A stretch of 22,619 bases of DNA from a virus. Below the pieces are notes generated by a model. That model worked only from the letters and a program-made list of their open reading frames with translations, searched no databases and had not been told where the DNA came from. The DNA lies in IMG/VR virus record IMGVR_UViG_3300021185_000914, positions 1 to 22,619 of that record; one strand, 5' to 3'. Shown in pieces: positions 557-15,671 of this stretch (the first letter of the stretch is position 1; each line of letters opens with the position of its first letter). The position numbers were made by a program, and so were the translations under genes.

Positions 557-961
557 ATGTTAACTTCCCTTATGTGCTTAGCAATCGCCGTATACTTTGA
601 GGCGCGGGGTGAACCAACAGCGGGGCAGCTTGCTGTAGCCCATGTGATACATAACAGAATAAAAGACCCTCGATACCCAGACAGCGCATGCGAAGTAGTT
701 AAACAAGGCTATTATTGGGATGGCAACCCAATAAGAAATAAATGCCAGTTTAGTTTTTACTGTGATGGTAAAAGCGATGTACCTAATAACAAACAAGCAT
801 GGTACAACGCCCTTTATATAGCATGGCTAAGCGGCATAATAGAAGACAAAACAAACAACGCAACTCACTACCACAGCGTCAATGTGTTTCCCGAATGGGC
901 ATACAATGGCGAGATAACCGTTAAAATCAATAAGCACATCTTTTACAAAGGCATTAATTAG
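557..961 (+). CDS. SleB-like cell wall hydrolase (probable endolysin)
   Basis: This 134-aa protein fits the Hydrolase_2/SleB family, which cleaves peptidoglycan glycan strands. Visible hallmarks are the N-terminal helix with YFEARGE (Glu15 is the expected catalytic acid), an AVAHVIHNRI helix, the Cys-containing CQFSFYCDG segment (Cys63, Cys69, with Cys45 upstream) and the late ATHYHSVNVFPEWA segment. The length is that of a single catalytic domain with no separate binding domain. The first 12 residues are hydrophobic (LTSLMCLAIAVYF) but belong to the family fold, so I do not call a signal peptide. AAGGA lies about 7 bases before the ATG. The gene is far from the holin/lipase cluster on the other strand, so it would be transcribed separately. 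It is the only clear peptidoglycan hydrolase in the window. Confidence 0.85.
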   Translation: MLTSLMCLAIAVYFEARGEPTAGQLAVAHVIHNRIKDPRYPDSACEVVKQGYYWDGNPIRNKCQFSFYCDGKSDVPNNKQAWYNALYIAWLSGIIEDKTNNATHYHSVNVFPEWAYNGEITVKINKHIFYKGIN

Positions 962-1209
962 TGACAACAACTAAAGTAAATAAAATAACTCCTGAAGAAC
1001 GAGACTTACTCCGCGAAGAGTTAGCACAACAAATAAAAAACTATTTAAAGAAAGGCGGAACTATAACAAAATGCCCCCCTCGCGCATTCACACCAGACCA
1101 AGGCCCAAAGAAAAAATTTGCTGGCAGTCAGTTTGACTCTTTAACTGATCCAACCAACCGAGACGTAGGCGCGGTACGCCCTACCAAAAACAAAGGCGGG
1201 AGTGACTAA
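961..1209 (+). CDS. Small SutA-like protein (possible RNA polymerase-associated regulator)
   Basis: An 82-aa protein starting at GTG, overlapping the previous stop by one base (TAGTG), with AAAGG about 9 bases upstream. The N-terminal part is a charged helix (ERDLLREELAQQIKNYLKKGG), followed by a low-complexity, Pro/Lys-rich and probably disordered tail with PKKKFAGSQF. The pattern of acidic helix, [FY]L.KGG, Pro-rich stretch and basic tail ending in a Gly-Ser motif resembles SutA, a small gammaproteobacterial protein that binds RNA polymerase and modulates transcription during slow growth. The likeness rests on my reading of short motifs in a low-complexity protein, so it is tentative. It could instead be an unrelated phage early protein. 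It is part of the tightly packed left operon. Confidence 0.6.
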   Translation: MTTTKVNKITPEERDLLREELAQQIKNYLKKGGTITKCPPRAFTPDQGPKKKFAGSQFDSLTDPTNRDVGAVRPTKNKGGSD

Positions 1210-2636: not shown

Positions 2637-2664
2637 AACTCTACCAGGAGCGGTACTTTGAGTT
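2637..2664 (+). promoter_or_regulatory. Hairpin presenting the polymerase Shine-Dalgarno in a GGA hexaloop (candidate CsrA site)
   Basis: TACC (2642-2645) pairs with GGTA (2652-2655), leaving the hexaloop AGGAGC (2646-2651). This loop is the AGGAG Shine-Dalgarno, 7 bases before the TTG start at 2658. An outer stem AACTC (2637-2641) with GAGTT (2660-2664) extends it, with a four-base bulge holding the first two bases of the start codon. A GGA triplet in a hairpin hexaloop over a ribosome-binding site is the classic CsrA target form. The pairing is visible; the binding is inferred from the csrA-like gene at 4475. Confidence 0.5.
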
Positions 2665-4475
2665 TAACAAAAGTCACTTTAGACTTTGAGACGTACTATG
2701 ACGTCAAACAAAGCTTAACCAAACTAACGACTATGGACTATGTCCGCCATGACAACTTTAAAGTCTGGGGCGTAGGCATCAAAGTCGAAGAAGAAGAAAC
2801 TCAATGGTACGGAGAAGATGAGGTAGACCAAGCTATACAAGATATAGACTGGTCAACTACAGCCGTTATCTGTCACAACACCCCATTCGACGGTTTTATA
2901 CTTACCGACTACTACAAAGTAATCCCTGCCTATTACATAGATACAGCCGCTATGTCTCGCGGTAACAACCCATCTAAGTCAGCAAGACTAAAAGATGTAG
3001 CAGAACGTATGTTCCCTGACGACCTTTCTATGCGTAAAGGCGATGAGCTTATAAACGCTAAAGGTATATATGACTTACCCCCTGACATAGAAGAACAGAT
3101 AGCCAGCTACTGCATTCAAGACGTAGATCTAACTTGGGCAATCTACAAAGAGTTTATGAAGACATTCCCTCAAGAAGAGCTAGATCTCATAGACCTTACT
3201 ACACGCATGTTCTGTGAACCCTCACTTAAGATTGACCGTGAACGACTGACCAAGTACCACGAATCAGAGCTGCATAACAATGAAACAACAATACTTGGCT
3301 CAGGTATAGAAAAAGACATACTAAGCTCTAACAACAAGTTTGTTGAGCTAGTAGAAAGTCTAGGCATCACTGTACCTACTAAACCAAGCCCATCAAACCC
3401 AGCAAAAAAGATTGCAGCCCTTGGTAAAAATGACGCTGGATTTAAACAAATGGCAGCTATGTACCCAGAGCATAACCATATATGGAATGCTCGCATAGCT
3501 ATAAAGTCGCGTCTTACTGAAACCAGATCAAAGCGCTTCTTAGACGCAGCTGACGATAACGACTACATACCTGCCCCAATCAGATATTACGCTGCGCACA
3601 CTGGTAGATTCGGCGGTACAGAAAAGCTAAACATGCAGAACCTGCCCAGAGGCGGTGAGTTACGCAAGTGTTTAATAGCGCCAGAAGGTCATCTTATCTA
3701 TGTAGCTGATTTATCTAACATTGAGGCCCGTATGCTGGCTTGGCTTGCTAACGAACAAGGTCTGCTCCAGCAATTCCGAAACGGTGATGATATATACAGT
3801 AATTTTGCTTCTGTCATATACAACAGACCAATAGACAAGAGCAATAACCCCACAGAACGATTTGTAGGTAAAACTGCAATCTTGGGCCTAGGCTATGGCA
3901 TGGGTCATGAGAAGTTCAAAGCTACTTTAAAGTCAGGTGCTATGGGGCCTGCTATGGAGTTTGATACAGAAGAATCAAGACGTATTGTTAATACTTATAG
4001 AAGCACTTACAGCGGTATCAAGAACCTCTGGTACAAGTTAGAAGACACTCTCAAACTGTCTATGGGTAAAAGCAACGAAGGAATGACCTATGGCCCCTTA
4101 ACTGTGGGTCATAATTCCTTAATTTTACCCAATCAAATGTCTTTGACATACAACAACTTACGTTCATCAAAAGACGGTTTGATCTTTGACTCTAAACTTA
4201 AATCAGAATACACCTACGGCGGGAAGATAACAGAAAATGTAATTCAGGCTCTTTCAAGAATTATCATTACAGACAGTATGTTACGGTTATCAAAATCCAT
4301 CCCAGGGGGAAAAGTAGCTCTAACAGTCCACGATGAGATCATCATGGTTGCGCCCGATACTAACCCTCATGCTACAATGGATAAGATCATCCAAGACATG
4401 TGTATAGCTCCTGATTGGGCAGCTGACATTCCCCTAGACGCCGAAGGCGGTTTTGATACTAGCTATAGTAAGTAA
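2658..4475 (+). CDS. polA: Family A DNA polymerase with 3'-5' exonuclease (Leu762 type)
   Basis: The 605-aa phage replicative DNA polymerase. The N-terminal DEDD 3'-5' exonuclease domain shows Exo I LDFETYYD (Asp9, Glu11), Exo II HNTPFD (Asp78) and Exo III YCIQDVD (Tyr151, Asp155). The polymerase domain shows motif A YVADLSNIEAR (Asp351), motif B with Arg401, Lys405 and YG at 413-414, and motif C TVHDE (His558, Asp559). There is no 5' nuclease domain. Aligned to E. coli Pol I, the position of Phe762 is Leu409 here (codon 3882-3884), a variant frequent in marine virus polymerases and thought to alter speed and fidelity. The TTG start is supported by AGGAG 7 bases upstream, itself inside a hairpin loop. 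The stop overlaps the csrA-like ATG by one base, so the two are probably translationally coupled. Confidence 0.96.
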   Translation: MSLTKVTLDFETYYDVKQSLTKLTTMDYVRHDNFKVWGVGIKVEEEETQWYGEDEVDQAIQDIDWSTTAVICHNTPFDGFILTDYYKVIPAYYIDTAAMSRGNNPSKSARLKDVAERMFPDDLSMRKGDELINAKGIYDLPPDIEEQIASYCIQDVDLTWAIYKEFMKTFPQEELDLIDLTTRMFCEPSLKIDRERLTKYHESELHNNETTILGSGIEKDILSSNNKFVELVESLGITVPTKPSPSNPAKKIAALGKNDAGFKQMAAMYPEHNHIWNARIAIKSRLTETRSKRFLDAADDNDYIPAPIRYYAAHTGRFGGTEKLNMQNLPRGGELRKCLIAPEGHLIYVADLSNIEARMLAWLANEQGLLQQFRNGDDIYSNFASVIYNRPIDKSNNPTERFVGKTAILGLGYGMGHEKFKATLKSGAMGPAMEFDTEESRRIVNTYRSTYSGIKNLWYKLEDTLKLSMGKSNEGMTYGPLTVGHNSLILPNQMSLTYNNLRSSKDGLIFDSKLKSEYTYGGKITENVIQALSRIIITDSMLRLSKSIPGGKVALTVHDEIIMVAPDTNPHATMDKIIQDMCIAPDWAADIPLDAEGGFDTSYSK

Positions 4476-4660
4476 TGCCAAGATTAGTTCTAACAAGAAA
4501 ACTTGATGAAACTGTAGTTGTCCATAAAGACGGCTTAAAGCTGCTTACTTTAAAAATAACTAAAATAGATCGTAACCAAGTACGAATCACCTTCGAAGCG
4601 TCTAAAGAAATTATAATTGACCGAGAAGAGGTGCTCTCCGCGCCCAAATCCGGCGAATAA
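4475..4660 (+). CDS. csrA: CsrA/RsmA-like RNA-binding translational regulator
   Basis: The 61-aa product has the full length and layout of CsrA: an N-terminal beta strand LVLTRKLDETVVV, a middle ITKIDRNQVRITFEA, and the KEIIIDREEV strand followed by a short tail. CsrA acts as a dimer that binds GGA in hairpin loops of mRNA leaders and usually blocks translation. By alignment with E. coli CsrA the RNA-contact residues correspond as Leu4 to Leu6, Arg6 to Arg8, Arg7 to Lys9, Val42 to Ile48 and Arg44 to Arg50, so the key basic residues are kept or conservatively changed; His43 is Asp49 here. The gene has no obvious Shine-Dalgarno and starts in a TAATG overlap with the polymerase stop, implying translational coupling. 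A phage replication operon is an unusual place for it. Targets could be host mRNAs, the flanking phage mRNAs, or both. Confidence 0.92.
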   Translation: MPRLVLTRKLDETVVVHKDGLKLLTLKITKIDRNQVRITFEASKEIIIDREEVLSAPKSGE

Positions 4661-4661
4661 C

Positions 4662-4684
4662 ATACTTCTCTAGGAGGAGAATAT
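4662..4684 (+). promoter_or_regulatory. Hairpin presenting the primase-helicase Shine-Dalgarno in a GGA hexaloop (candidate CsrA site)
   Basis: TTCTC (4666-4670) pairs perfectly with GAGAA (4677-4681), leaving the hexaloop TAGGAG (4671-4676), which holds most of the AGGAGG Shine-Dalgarno. With C4665 bulged, ATA (4662-4664) can also pair with TAT (4682-4684), which would bury the start codon. This lies directly downstream of the csrA-like gene and has the form expected of a CsrA operator. The pairing is read from the sequence; the function is inferred. Confidence 0.55.
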
Positions 4685-7202
4685 GAGAGTAACTTTTCTT
4701 GAGGCGACTAATGGGCTGCGCCTCAGCAAACAACATTCAGCGACTAAAGGTTTTACGCCTTATCCGCACGTAAAAGCAGTAACTTCTCACAGATATGACA
4801 TACCAATATCTGATTCAGGCTTAGATCAGTTTGAGCAGTTACTTCGAACCCACGGTAGCCAAGGTCATTGCTTGCTTAAAGGCGACCTTAAGCGTGATCT
4901 TATCGATGAAAGCCGTGCAGGGCTAGCTAATCGCAACGCCCTTACAAACTTGCTTGTTCTAGACATCGATGGAGTTACTCTTTCAAAGCAAGTCTCTACA
5001 TCAAAGCTTACAACTACAGACGTAATCTATCTAGCTAATCAAGTTATAGCCGAGTTACCTCAAGAGCTGCACAACGTCAGTTATATAGCTCAAGCTTCTT
5101 CTAGCTTGGGTCTCAAAGGTAATAAAACGTCCTTACATATATTTATGTTTCTGTCCGTAGCAATGCCACCCAAAGCAGTAAAGCTATGGCTGCAGGACTC
5201 TAACTACGAATCTGATATTTTCTCTGAGCAATTAGAGCTATCTGTAAACGGCCAATCATTAAAGTACCCACTAGACTCATCAGTAGCAGATAACTCAAAA
5301 CTTATATTCATAGCTCCTCCTACATTCGACGACGCTAAGAACAATCCCTTTGTTTCTGATCAAGATCGTATAGCTGTAGTTAAAAGAGACAACGCATCTT
5401 TTGATTTAGCTGCGCTTATGAAAAATATAAGCCCGCAAAAATGCCATGAAAAAAGCCAACTATTCAAAGACGCTTTGCGAGAAAAGTCTGGGTTTAAGAA
5501 AAAACCAACCAAGACTCGTTTAACTTCTGTAGACAATCAAACAGAAGAAATACTAGTTAACCCAGACAAGATGTCTATATCAGTGTCAGATACAACTAGC
5601 TTTCCTTACATACGTTGCAATATAAATGGCGGAGACAGTGGTGCTTATTACTTCAACATTGAAAAGCCCACGTACATGTATAACTTTAAAGACGAACCTA
5701 TCTTCGAAATAGAAAAAGCTGATAAAGACTTTTACGCTTCTATTTTTGATACGTTCGCTCAAGAGTTAGAAAAGATAGGTAAAGCTGAATTCCCTACTGT
5801 TATGAGAGACTTCGATACAGACACCTTTTACGCAGGTCTGTTCGATCCCAATCAAAATCAGTTCTCTGACAGCTTTCCACTAACGCCTATAGGTAAAGTT
5901 AACATCGAAGACTTTTTCATGACTCATGGAAAGCTTCCACCCGACTTTATACCAGACGCTAAAGTTAAGTTTATACCTACGTCTAACGAACCAGCAATTA
6001 ACCTTGCTAAGACGCCGTACGAGATAAATACATTTAGGCGCACCAAGTATGCTTTATCGCCAGAAAAACCAGCAAAGCCTCTTGAGTTTGGTACAGCTAA
6101 CAACTTAGAGCGAATAACTCCTCTTACCTACACAATCATGAACCACATGCTTGGCAACGGTAAAGAAGAGTTCGAACGCTTTATTAACTGGCTCGCTTAT
6201 ATATTCCAAACACGTAAAAAGACAGGTGTATCTTGGGTACTCTCCGGTACACAAGGCACTGGTAAAGGTATTTTCTACTCACGCATACTACGAGGCCTCT
6301 TTGGTACGCATCACGCTCCAATGAGATACCTACAAAGTATGGAAGAGCAGTTTAACTTGTATATGAGAGACGCTTTGTTCCTGGTCGTCGATGAGTTCCA
6401 TATGGCATCGTCTTCTAGCGGCGCTGGTAAGATGGCTGACAAACTAAAAAATCAAATAACAGAGTCAACCATTACGATACGAGGCATGCGCAGCAACCAA
6501 GTAGAAATGGATAACTATACAAACTTTATATTCTTAACTAACAGATCAGATGCCGTAAACATAGAAACCGGAGACAGGCGTTACAACATAGCACCTAAGC
6601 AAGATAAAAAACTCTTAGATGTCTACCCTGACCTCCCAGCCCGGTTAGATACTGACGAGCTTGAGCAAGAACTTTGGAAGCTAGCAGGTGTCCTCGAGAC
6701 ATTTGTCTATAACAAACGCTTTGTAGAAACTGCTATAGACAATACCGCTAAAGAACAAATGCGTAATGTATCTATGTCAGTGTTTGACGAGTTCTGCCAA
6801 TCACTAAAAGACGGCACTCTTATCTTCTTTGCCGACATATTAGACATAAACGTAGCTGCAGTATTACACAGCAATGAGATAGAAATCGCTCAAAGGTTAG
6901 TAAAAACATGGATAGCTCAATCTCAAGATGAATATTCTGTTATACCTATGGAGCACTTACGAACCATCTACCACGTACAAACAGAGCAAAACCCACGTTT
7001 CTCCCAACGCGAGTTCTCCAAACGTATGAGCAGAAACGATTTAGTCTCTGAGCGCAAACGTCCTTATGGTGCAGGCAGGAATGCTAACTTACTAAGCGGC
7101 ATAGTTGTTAATTGGAATATAACTGATATAGAACGTCAAAGGATCATAAACCAATACTTCAACAAAGAAGATAAATCTCTTTTACAAGCCGCTGATAACT
7201 AG
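4683..7202 (+). CDS. Primase-helicase: AEP-like primase N-terminus with SF3-type (DUF5906-like) helicase
   Basis: An 839-aa fusion expected to synthesise primers and unwind DNA at the phage fork. The N-terminal third has an archaeo-eukaryotic primase-like pattern: LVLDIDG (Asp94, Asp96), then TSLHIF (His152), then PLDSS (Asp198). After a linker rich in Lys, and a beta-rich segment with a single Cys (about 305-345), the C-terminal half is a superfamily 3 helicase. It has Walker A GTQGTGKG (about 522-529), Walker B LFLVVDE (565-571), the motif C strand FIFLTN (615-620) and a GDRRYN arginine finger (630-635). The first ATG follows a strong AGGAGG that sits in a candidate CsrA-bound hairpin. The family usually acts as a hexamer. 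Primase activity is inferred from three motif residues; the helicase assignment is firm. Confidence 0.9.
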   Translation: MRVTFLEATNGLRLSKQHSATKGFTPYPHVKAVTSHRYDIPISDSGLDQFEQLLRTHGSQGHCLLKGDLKRDLIDESRAGLANRNALTNLLVLDIDGVTLSKQVSTSKLTTTDVIYLANQVIAELPQELHNVSYIAQASSSLGLKGNKTSLHIFMFLSVAMPPKAVKLWLQDSNYESDIFSEQLELSVNGQSLKYPLDSSVADNSKLIFIAPPTFDDAKNNPFVSDQDRIAVVKRDNASFDLAALMKNISPQKCHEKSQLFKDALREKSGFKKKPTKTRLTSVDNQTEEILVNPDKMSISVSDTTSFPYIRCNINGGDSGAYYFNIEKPTYMYNFKDEPIFEIEKADKDFYASIFDTFAQELEKIGKAEFPTVMRDFDTDTFYAGLFDPNQNQFSDSFPLTPIGKVNIEDFFMTHGKLPPDFIPDAKVKFIPTSNEPAINLAKTPYEINTFRRTKYALSPEKPAKPLEFGTANNLERITPLTYTIMNHMLGNGKEEFERFINWLAYIFQTRKKTGVSWVLSGTQGTGKGIFYSRILRGLFGTHHAPMRYLQSMEEQFNLYMRDALFLVVDEFHMASSSSGAGKMADKLKNQITESTITIRGMRSNQVEMDNYTNFIFLTNRSDAVNIETGDRRYNIAPKQDKKLLDVYPDLPARLDTDELEQELWKLAGVLETFVYNKRFVETAIDNTAKEQMRNVSMSVFDEFCQSLKDGTLIFFADILDINVAAVLHSNEIEIAQRLVKTWIAQSQDEYSVIPMEHLRTIYHVQTEQNPRFSQREFSKRMSRNDLVSERKRPYGAGRNANLLSGIVVNWNITDIERQRIINQYFNKEDKSLLQAADN

Positions 7203-9037: not shown

Positions 9038-9056
9038 TTATAAGTTATGCTAATAT
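9027..9056 (+). promoter_or_regulatory. Candidate extended -10 promoter for the SNF2-helicase block
   Basis: TTGAAC (9027-9032) and TAATAT (9051-9056) are 18 bases apart, and TGC immediately precedes the -10 hexamer, giving an extended -10 (TGCTAATAT). It lies at the end of the previous gene and before the ATG at 9084. It is plausible because an upstream terminator isolates this block, but the region is AT-rich. Confidence 0.38.
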
Positions 9057-12449: not shown

Positions 12450-12828
12450 TTATAATCAACCTTTTTGCTACGTACAAAGGATGCTTAAACTCAAACGAAT
12501 AATCTCCCCCAACGTTAGCAGTAAAAGATAACTCTCCGTCATCTTCTGGCGTTATTACGTTGTCAGGCCATCTAACTTTTGACCCTACAGGAATATTAGT
12601 AACGCTTATTACGCTTCCTACTGTAGCTGGAGAAACAGTAACGTCAGGAAACTCTGTCTTATCAACAATGGCACCACTACCATTTACATATTGTGCATCG
12701 TAGTCAGCAAATATGTCAGTGACCATGTACAACTGACCTTGGTCAATGTTCATTTCTATTTCATCTTCTGCGCAAGATATAACTTTGACTATAGTACCGT
12801 CGGGTTCATAAACAGCATAAATATTCAT
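12439..12828 (-). CDS. Tail-fibre-associated beta-rich protein
   Basis: A 129-aa protein that begins MNIYAVYEPDGTIVKVISC and continues with beta-strand-rich, Thr/Val-rich sequence. Its C-terminal part (VTVSPATVGSVISVTNIPVG to GGDYSFEFKHPLYVAKRLII) looks like an Ig-like or carbohydrate-contact domain. It starts in an ATGA overlap with the stop of the large fibre gene. Small proteins in this position are commonly fibre tips or accessory fibres in tailed phages. That role is inferred from position and fold impression; I cannot name a family. Confidence 0.6.
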   Translation of the reverse strand: MNIYAVYEPDGTIVKVISCAEDEIEMNIDQGQLYMVTDIFADYDAQYVNGSGAIVDKTEFPDVTVSPATVGSVISVTNIPVGSKVRWPDNVITPEDDGELSFTANVGGDYSFEFKHPLYVAKRLIINVS

Positions 12829-15671
12829 CGCTTAACCCCCAACAAAGAAATAAACCAATTACCGCCAACAGCACCTGAGCCTGTACTACTGCCATATATA
12901 CGGTAAGTAGTAGACCCAGTGCTAGGTGTATGAACAAAACCTGCGCTCATACAGTCAGAGAAACCTTGAAGACTAGACTGCCCAACTATGCCTTCCGAGC
13001 TATTAGCCGTTATTCTAAGCCCCCGCGTAACTTCGTTAGTACCAGTTGATGTAGCAATAATATTAAGCTGCCCAAAGAACTGCACTTGCGACGGAAGAAG
13101 CGAAGCGTCAGACCCCCAATTAACTGTAATAGAGCCTATTTGAGTCCACGCCGATCCAATAGAAACGCCGCTTGGCCCGGATATAGCACGGGGAACAGTA
13201 ACGTTTTCACCAGCAATCTTAAGGGTAGTTACTTGTGCTGATCCTATCTTAGCAGCTGTTATTTGAGCATCACCAATCTTAGCGGTCGTTATAGTAGCGT
13301 TGTCTATCTTGGCGCCCGTCACGGCTAAGTTATCAATTTTTCCTGTAGTCACAGCTAAATTGTCAATCTTCGCTACGTCTACCGCTAGATCCCCAATTTT
13401 GGCAGTAGAAATAGTACCGTTTTGTATAAACGCGTCGGTTATGTAAACCCCAGTGCCAACAGTTTCTCCGCCAATCGTTGTTGGACTCGTCCTTACAATA
13501 AAAGGAATATCGGAATTTTGTATTGTAGAACCGATAGCAAACTCATCGGCTCTTACATAGAACTTAGCAGAAGTACTGTTGTTAACTAGCCCGAACCCCG
13601 CGACCATGCCGTTTGAATCAATTCTTACTGAGTACTCGCCCTCCAGCCCATTTATTGAGGTTGAATTAGTCTGAACAGTTGTAGATAAATTCCCAACAGT
13701 TGTGTTTACTTGGCTAACGTCAGAAGAAAGCGTTTGAACTTCGCCATCTAACGTAGACACACTAGTTGTTAGCTGATTAACAGCTGTCGCAGTAGCCGCT
13801 ACACCTGTGGAAGGATCATTAACAGTCGATTCAAGTGCAGTAATATCAGAAGCATTTGTAGATATATTGTTACCCTGCTGGGTAACAGTCGTAGTTAAGC
13901 TAGACAGACCGCTAGATGTTGCTGCTACTCCAGTAGTAGGGTCATTGACGGTTGTTTCTAAAGCAGTGATGTCTGAAGCATTAGTTGTTATATCGTTACC
14001 CTGCTGGGTAACAGTTGTAGATAAACTAGATAAACCACTAGCTGTTGCCGCTACTCCAGTAGTAGGGTCATTAACGGTTGTTTCTAAAGCAGTAATATCA
14101 GAAGCATTTGTAGATATATTATTGCCCTGTTGGGTAACAGTTGTAGATAAACTAGATAAACCACTAGCTGTTGCTGCTACTCCAGTAGTAGGGTCATTAA
14201 CGGTTGTTTCTAGGGCAGTAATGTCTGAAGCATTAGTTGTTATATCGGCACCCTGATTGGTAACAGTCGTCGACAAATTTGACAGGCCACTAGCAGTCGC
14301 ATTAACTCCAGTAGTTGGATTGTTAACAGTTGTCTCAAGGCTCGTTATATCAGAAGCGTTAGTTGTTATATCGTTACCCTGCTGGGTAACAGTCGTCGAC
14401 AAATTCGATAGCCCACTGGCCGTTGCGTTGACGCCAGTGGTCGGGTCGTTAACGGTTGTTTCTAAAGCAGTGATGTCTGAAGCATTAGTTGTTATATCGT
14501 TACCCTGCTGGGTAACAGTTGTAGATAAGCTAGATAAACCACTAGCTGTTGCCGCTACTCCAGTAGTAGGGTTGTTAACTGTTGTTTCTAAAGAAGTAAT
14601 ATCAGAGGCGTTAGTTGTTATATCGTTACCCTGCTGGGTAACAGTTGTAGATAAGCTAGATAAACCACTAGCTGTTGCTACTACGCCAGTTGATGGGTCG
14701 TTTACAGTTGTCTCTAAAGAAGTAATATCAGAAGCGTTAGTTGCAGTAGTTTGTTGTAAAGTAGTTATATTTGAGCTATTTGATCCTACAGTTGTATTCA
14801 GATTAGTTATTTGCGAAGTGTGAGTACTAGTTATTGTCTCCAAAGAAACTATATCATTCTCAGCTGCGTTAATTAAAAGCTGCGCTGCAGCTATATCTGC
14901 TTCAGCTGCAGCTATATCTGCTTCAGCTGCAGCTATATCTGCTTCAGCAGTAGCTAAATTTGTTTCAACTGTAGATAGATTAGTTTCAACTGTAGATAAA
15001 GTAGTTTCAACCGCGGCTAAATTTGCCTCGTTAACTTCAATAAGGTCGATTCTGTCGTTAAGACCTTGGTAAAATGCATCTTCAGTTATAGCCCCTTGCA
15101 AAACTTCTAATGTGTTAACCACATCTAAAGCTGTTTGACCTAGCGTGCCCGCAGACGCATTATAAGGCCCGACTATAGCAGCCGTGCTTACGTGGCGTAT
15201 CCAATAGTAAAAAGACTGCCCTTCTCCGCAAGGATCAGAAAAAGCGAACCCGCTAGCAGTACCAATTAACTGTGCGTCGCCCAGCACATCAGAGTCATGC
15301 CGCCATATTTCAGTCAGAGAGTGATTGCTGTAGTTGGGGAAGTCCCAAAACAACAACATAACTGAATAGCCACCAGTTACTGAAAAACCAGTAGGCGCAG
15401 TTGGAATAGTAGTGTTTATTACTTCAGTGTCGCTACCAAAGTTCGAGCTGCCGTCAGGATTAAAAGGTCTGTTCGCCAGCTCTACTGCCAGCCCACTATC
15501 TATCAACTCCCTTAGAGTTACAGCTCGATCTCTTGTGTCTCCGCGTCTACCTAATCTTATCTCAACCGCTTCTGACAAACTCTCTAAGTATTTGCGTAAA
15601 GCAGGCGAGACGTCTCCTGGGGGTTTAGGTAACCCAGGTACTTTTGTAGGTTTTGTAGTGCGAACAGTCAT
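12825..15671 (-). CDS. Central tail fibre / host specificity protein with 42-aa repeats and DUF1983-like domain
   Basis: A 948-aa tail protein. After an N-terminal linker (PKPPGDVSPALRKYLESL) comes a fibronectin type III-like domain (about 90-173). A helical coiled-coil region follows with heptads such as AEADIAA (about 205-310), then eight tandem 42-residue repeats with the core TNASDITALETTV (about 310-646). A DUF1983-like domain YSVRIDSNGMVAGFGL (about 680 on) resembles the C-terminal part of lambda J-type proteins. Next come 11-residue AKIDNLAVTT-type repeats (about 750-822) and a beta-rich tip. It should form a trimeric fibre that contacts the host. The start overlaps the upstream stop (ATGA). 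Long plus-strand ORFs opposite the repeats are shadows. Confidence 0.88.
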   Translation of the reverse strand: MTVRTTKPTKVPGLPKPPGDVSPALRKYLESLSEAVEIRLGRRGDTRDRAVTLRELIDSGLAVELANRPFNPDGSSNFGSDTEVINTTIPTAPTGFSVTGGYSVMLLFWDFPNYSNHSLTEIWRHDSDVLGDAQLIGTASGFAFSDPCGEGQSFYYWIRHVSTAAIVGPYNASAGTLGQTALDVVNTLEVLQGAITEDAFYQGLNDRIDLIEVNEANLAAVETTLSTVETNLSTVETNLATAEADIAAAEADIAAAEADIAAAQLLINAAENDIVSLETITSTHTSQITNLNTTVGSNSSNITTLQQTTATNASDITSLETTVNDPSTGVVATASGLSSLSTTVTQQGNDITTNASDITSLETTVNNPTTGVAATASGLSSLSTTVTQQGNDITTNASDITALETTVNDPTTGVNATASGLSNLSTTVTQQGNDITTNASDITSLETTVNNPTTGVNATASGLSNLSTTVTNQGADITTNASDITALETTVNDPTTGVAATASGLSSLSTTVTQQGNNISTNASDITALETTVNDPTTGVAATASGLSSLSTTVTQQGNDITTNASDITALETTVNDPTTGVAATSSGLSSLTTTVTQQGNNISTNASDITALESTVNDPSTGVAATATAVNQLTTSVSTLDGEVQTLSSDVSQVNTTVGNLSTTVQTNSTSINGLEGEYSVRIDSNGMVAGFGLVNNSTSAKFYVRADEFAIGSTIQNSDIPFIVRTSPTTIGGETVGTGVYITDAFIQNGTISTAKIGDLAVDVAKIDNLAVTTGKIDNLAVTGAKIDNATITTAKIGDAQITAAKIGSAQVTTLKIAGENVTVPRAISGPSGVSIGSAWTQIGSITVNWGSDASLLPSQVQFFGQLNIIATSTGTNEVTRGLRITANSSEGIVGQSSLQGFSDCMSAGFVHTPSTGSTTYRIYGSSTGSGAVGGNWFISLLGVKR
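13205..13425 (-). repeat. Degenerate 33-bp (11-aa) repeats in the central fibre gene
   Basis: About six copies of an 11-residue unit of the form AKIDNLAVTTG or AKIGDAQITA follow each other in the fibre protein. Such KI repeats form a fibrous shaft in many phage tail proteins. The copies differ at several positions, so this is old rather than recent duplication. Boundaries are approximate. Confidence 0.7.
13734..14741 (-). repeat. Eight tandem 126-bp (42-aa) repeats in the central fibre gene
   Basis: Eight in-frame units of exactly 126 bases, each beginning TNASDIT and continuing LETTVNDPTTGVAATASGL, SSLSTTVTQQ and GNDIT or a variant. The first seven are very alike; the eighth (next to the C-terminal domain) is more diverged. 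The constant unit length points to duplication by recombination or slippage. Copy number would set fibre length. Confidence 0.9.
14885..14947 (-). repeat. Three perfect 21-bp tandem repeats (AEADIAA heptads)
   Basis: The 21-base unit at 14885-14905 is repeated exactly at 14906-14926 and 14927-14947. It encodes three identical heptads AEADIAA in the coiled-coil part of the fibre. Perfect identity at the DNA level suggests recent expansion and possible copy-number change between isolates. Confidence 0.9.

Follow-up and report, generated by a model that had tools for sequence, protein, structure and literature searches.

The T4 RegA protein is a small translational repressor that is encoded in the core replication cluster and acts at translation starts, and the autogenous operators of T4 gp43 and gp32 are RNA elements at or near the ribosome binding site that control replication proteins (PMC3014915). 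For the bacterial regulator CsrA, most ligands selected by SELEX are short hairpins with GGA in the loop, residues L4 and R44 of the E. coli protein are critical for RNA binding, and repression occurs through ribosome exclusion or, as at psl, through stabilization of a hairpin containing the Shine-Dalgarno (SD) sequence (PMC7652899). The presence of csrA in phages was catalogued in 2020 for 30 phages (PMC7366521) and surveyed in 2021 across GenBank and IMG/VR, when a host-directed, anti-CRISPR role was proposed (PMC8450108). In the literature we found phage csrA read as a tool against the host, and no defined phage target of a phage CsrA. A previous sequence-only reading of the DNA described here had presented its csrA gene as a candidate new system. 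This wording is too strong, because csrA in phages has already been published; what appears new is a fixed polA-csrA-primase arrangement with a candidate operator, and no description of this operon or its hairpin was found in the open-access collection searched, which lacks most subscription journals.

The window, by which we mean the whole 22,619-nt stretch that was analyzed (IMG/VR virus record IMGVR_UViG_3300021185_000914), encodes on its plus strand a family A DNA polymerase, polA (2658-4475, TTG start; Pfam PF00476 at 102 bits, PHROG 17), followed by csrA (4475-4660, ATG start, 61 aa) and a primase-helicase (4683-7202) with a DUF5906/VapE-like Pfam domain and matches to PHROG DNA primase families and phrog_24712. 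The primase-helicase follows csrA directly, as the sequence-only reading had it, at a distance of 22 nt. The TAATG overlap that it had described between polA and csrA is likewise correct, the polA stop codon (4473-4475) and the csrA ATG (4475-4477) having one base in common. The csrA gene has no SD of its own and no GGA near its start, and its translation should therefore occur via coupling to polA. Elsewhere in the window, an 82-aa ORF with a GTG start (961-1209, plus strand) matched the Pfam SutA-RBD family PF20661 at 31.9 bits against a cut-off of 29.3, and its predicted product is possibly an RNA polymerase-binding regulator of the SutA kind. The minus strand at 12825-15671 encodes a tail-tip/fibre-like protein of 948 aa that contains a long stretch of almost identical NASDITALETTVNDPTTGVAATASGLSSLSTTVTQQG-type repeats.

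The product of csrA is a true CsrA-family protein, as judged by Pfam, fold search and conserved RNA-contact residues, and is predicted to bind RNA. The coordinates proposed for the gene were right, and the profile search against PF02599 that had been suggested for it gave 41 bits (E=1.8e-10) versus a family cut-off of 27; the ORF also matched PHROG 9500, 'CsrA-like regulator', and no second CsrA was found in the 22,619-bp record. Leu6, Arg8, Lys9, Ile48 and Arg50 occupy the positions at which they had been reported, and an alignment of 23 phage CsrAs shows no variation at Arg8, Ile48 and Arg50, very little at Leu6, and either Lys or Arg at residue 9. By alignment L6, R8, I48 and R50 correspond to L4, R6, V42 and R44 of E. 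coli CsrA, and with K9 at the place of R7 the equivalents of the RNA contacts L4, R6, R7 and R44 are all present. The nearest solved chains by sequence were RsmA, CsrA and their homologues. An AlphaFold2 model of the single chain, built from the 23 phage relatives (pLDDT 86), was used in a fold search of the PDB, in which the top 15 matches were all CsrA, RsmA or RsmE (probability 0.89-1.00, E-values above 0.001) and included RsmE bound to the hcnA SD. Strong purifying selection acts on the gene, with dN/dS values of 0.03-0.20 in the seven pairs that could be computed; two pairs, one of them the window and L068, were saturated.

Searches of viral contigs with CsrA, the primase and primase alignments as queries yielded 237 loci with a primase start. 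These were condensed to 125 distinct contexts in which the upstream sequence was long enough. A survey of relatives for the polymerase-csrA-primase order had been suggested by the earlier reading, and csrA was located directly upstream of the primase (within 140 nt) in 123 of the 125 contexts, a count that includes some loci found via the CsrA query and comes from alignment searches that gave the best 80 of 451 and the best 80 of 242 relatives, so that relatives lacking csrA may exist unseen. Among loci found with the primase alone, csrA was present in all that had upstream sequence. The two contexts without csrA are the distant cultured phages KPP25 and phiA008, with primases about 30% identical; they are the only such primase relatives among the matches listed, and are too distant for a test of hairpin presence against absence. 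At loci where both ends were called cleanly, the gap between polA and csrA was -4 to +8 nt, and at L123, a locus not recovered by the first BLAST, a divergent csrA that overlaps polA was read by eye. The lineage consists of uncultivated aquatic viruses of bacteria, and the genome contigs searched with the primase or CsrA alignment gave no host match. The occurrence of csrA in 123 contexts and the purifying selection acting on it indicate that it belongs to the core of the replication module in this lineage, and is not occasional cargo.

Just downstream of csrA we identified a feature that was missing from the earlier note, the candidate CsrA operator CAUAcUUCUCU[AGGA]GGAGAAUAUG (4661-4685, plus strand), an RNA hairpin that covers the SD and start codon of the primase. 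Its core stem pairs 4666-4671 with 4676-4681 around a loop at 4672-4675, and this core persists when folded in a longer context. The SD (AGGAGGA) presents its first GGA in the loop, its second half is part of the stem, and the AUG falls within the outer stem. At this position the most numerous group of relatives carries GCUCU[GUAGGA]GGAGC. In the 29 distinct leaders sharing GUAGGA, 95.2% of the cells of a five-pair helix were paired, compared to 89.2% after shuffling (0/500), and the covariation score was 0.230 versus 0.111 (0/500); three of the five pairs showed compensatory changes on both sides, and every slid register of the helix scored worse. Other clades enclose the same GGA in unrelated stems, including AGGCUC[AGGAG]GAGCUU, AGAUUC[GUAGGA]GGAUCU, AUUGG[AGGA]CCAAU, AUAAAA[AGGA]UUUUAU and AGC[AGGA]GCU. 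Against a repressor model, roughly half of the divergent clades, the L065 and L038 groups in particular, have no convincing hairpin, and in most loops the A of the ANGGAN consensus is missing (PMC7652899).

Since GGA is part of any SD, we shuffled only those positions of each leader that lie outside the SD and the start codon. The window primase hairpin had p=0.01 in this test, and in a non-redundant set of 45 leaders, differing at more than 8 of 24 positions, p was 0.05 or less in 10 (binomial 6e-5) and 0.1 or less in 17 (7e-7). Hairpins of -4 kcal/mol or better were present in 29/74 primase leaders and in 11/408 other genes of the same contigs (control genes with GGA near a start codon picked by rule), a comparison in which many leaders are related by descent rather than independent and the SD supplies GGA anyway, both of which weigh against the repressor model. 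After clustering, the corresponding numbers were 8/40 for the primase and 6/222 for other genes (p=2e-4). By gene family, p≤0.05 was reached by 21/60 primase leaders compared to 4/63 for polA, 6/33 for Pam3 gp34-like genes and 7/49 for the exonuclease, and we rejected a genome-wide phage regulon, as the matches outside the primase were only scattered. Within the window, 30 gene starts were tested and only those of polA and the primase reached 0.05. The polA hairpin, UACC[AGGAGC]GGUA over the SD (2642-2655, plus strand; p=0.023), could be a further CsrA site restricted to the window; it is not kept in relatives, and polA was dismissed as a conserved target. Separately, a family of 290-aa genes (L058 8501, L062 8506, L063 8506) has GCUAAC[AAGGGAG or AACGGAG]GUUAGC over the SD, with p≤0.01 in 3/4 leaders, and this hairpin is possibly a second CsrA target in the L058/L062/L063 clade.

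A second recurrent element of these contigs, the palindrome ATTAGYNNNRCTAAT, has to be distinguished from the hairpins. It occurs in 161 distinct copies with a spacer of exactly 5 nt, compared to mostly 0-2 copies at other spacers (10 at spacer 8) and 0-2 for control palindromes. Most copies are 35-50 nt upstream of primase, exonuclease and helicase starts, for example at 1752, 6986 and 8869 in L071 and 3430 in L005, and in the main clade the palindrome is also found within the 3' end of polA, some 130 nt upstream of csrA. The window has a single copy with one mismatch (9040-9054), 44 nt upstream of the start of the helicase gene. In the half-sites the inner Y and R vary nearly independently, which fits a DNA operator and not an RNA stem, and the palindrome probably serves this lineage as a DNA operator or promoter element. 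The AUUAG[CAGGA/CGGGA]CUAAU hairpins of L058, L062 and L063 coincide with it and were rejected as CsrA evidence, and leaders of the L058 type were excluded from the count because the palindrome may look like a GGA hairpin, as in L058 and L062. The final count still contains two leaders of the L062 type (L188 and L192; p about 0.10), one of them counting at 0.1, and the conclusion of hairpin enrichment is unchanged by them.

The sequence-only reading had supposed that the phage uses CsrA to redirect host mRNAs, to time its own replication proteins, or both. The conserved GGA-loop hairpin over the primase SD lends support, at the level of sequence, to the timing of the phage's own proteins, and on balance we lean towards a domesticated CsrA that serves as a dedicated translational repressor of the replication operon through the hairpin at the primase start. 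With csrA translated by coupling to polA, the amount of CsrA would follow polymerase synthesis. A CsrA dimer would bind the loop GGA of the hairpin over the primase-helicase SD and stabilize it, keeping the ribosome off, and once enough polymerase had been made, synthesis of the primase-helicase would be limited or switched off.

It is rather unlikely, in our judgment, that CsrA instead acts mainly on the host, mimicking or outcompeting host CsrA so as to reprogram metabolism or repress defence genes like CRISPR-Cas, with csrA sitting among replication genes only for early expression. A host role has been proposed for phage CsrA/RsmA generally (PMC8450108, PMC7366521), and carriage by phage and host is correlated (PMC8450108); the plasmid-encoded RsmQ is reported to take control of host behaviour (PMC9928087). 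The RNA-contact residues of the phage protein are those of bacterial CsrA, and host sites should therefore be bound too, and the window also encodes the possible SutA-like RNA polymerase-binding protein. However, a host role leaves both the fixed polA-csrA-primase order and the conserved hairpin at the primase start unexplained, and it may be that host-directed action and primase repression both hold. CsrA could also activate the primase by opening the SD-sequestering hairpin, the primase then being made only after CsrA accumulates. The fold of the window leader pairs the AUG together with part of the SD, and CsrA-dependent opening of an SD hairpin is documented for E. coli ymdA (PMC7652899), which counts against the repressor model; but opening at ymdA depends on an additional site 5' of the hairpin, a further conserved GGA site was not noticed in the primase leaders, and sites on the SD itself more often give repression, and we regard activation as improbable. 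Equally little credence goes to a plain RNA structure, unbound by CsrA, that tunes primase translation or its coupling to csrA and has GGA simply as a part of the SD, since although every SD of the AGGAGGA type contains GGA and csrA and the primase are 22 nt apart in the window, the csrA-primase gaps of 40-80 nt in many relatives do not fit coupling, the hairpin exceeds shuffles even with the SD fixed and is far rarer at other genes of the same contigs, and the SD is placed with its GGA in the loop rather than paired to an anti-SD.

The phage system shares with bacterial CsrA, RsmA and RsmE (PF02599) a common fold, the RNA-contact residues and, in the candidate operator, a GGA-in-loop site over the SD. 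The phage protein differs in having about 4 additional residues between beta2 and beta3 and 2 at the N-terminus, and, unlike bacterial csrA, its gene sits in a replication operon beside its apparent target. Neither a CsrB-like antagonist RNA nor any other Rfam family was matched in the window, the record being a fragment. Legionella CsrT (PMC7366521), the plasmid protein RsmQ (PMC9928087) and the CsrA of pMBA19a are also CsrA proteins on mobile elements, but their reported or proposed action is on host behaviour or conjugation and not on a replication operon. Other phage csrA genes, in Pseudomonas F116-like phages and PA8 and in Vibrio VvAW1, D279 and 1.232.O, belong to the same CsrA family (PMC7366521), but in five cultured-phage regions csrA has other neighbours, such as the exonuclease-csrA-HNH order of VvAW1. 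Because of this different context we rejected the cultured csrA phages as closer relatives. A single GGA-loop hairpin below p=0.05 (PA8, L142 1871) was found among 48 gene starts in these regions.

Closer parallels to the proposed control are found in T4. The gp43 and gp32 operators resemble the candidate operator in that phage replication proteins are controlled through RNA located on or close to the ribosome binding site, but in T4 the replication enzyme itself represses, whereas here a separate protein, CsrA, would do so. We suggest, more tentatively, that throughout this lineage CsrA has been converted from a global regulator of the host into an obligatory cis-operon repressor and an independent counterpart of RegA. 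Its operator would lie at the start of the neighbouring primase gene and translation of the polymerase would meter its synthesis, forming a two-gene feedback that balances polymerase and primase-helicase. RegA-like translational control of phage replication would then have arisen independently a second time, and the lineage would offer a way to study experimentally why phages retain CsrA, since csrA here is an apparently indispensable replication-module gene with a short, specific candidate RNA target. RegA belongs to an unrelated protein family, and the phage protein showed no RegA homology, its Pfam matches being confined to CsrA families and its PHROG matches to families of CsrA-like or transcriptional regulators; RegA sites are without RNA structure, and RegA represses about 30 mRNAs. 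By analogy, RegA nevertheless appears to be the closest system in function and position, a likeness that, if the repressor model is right, lies in the proposed action of a small repressor at a translation start and in the place of its gene among those for replication.
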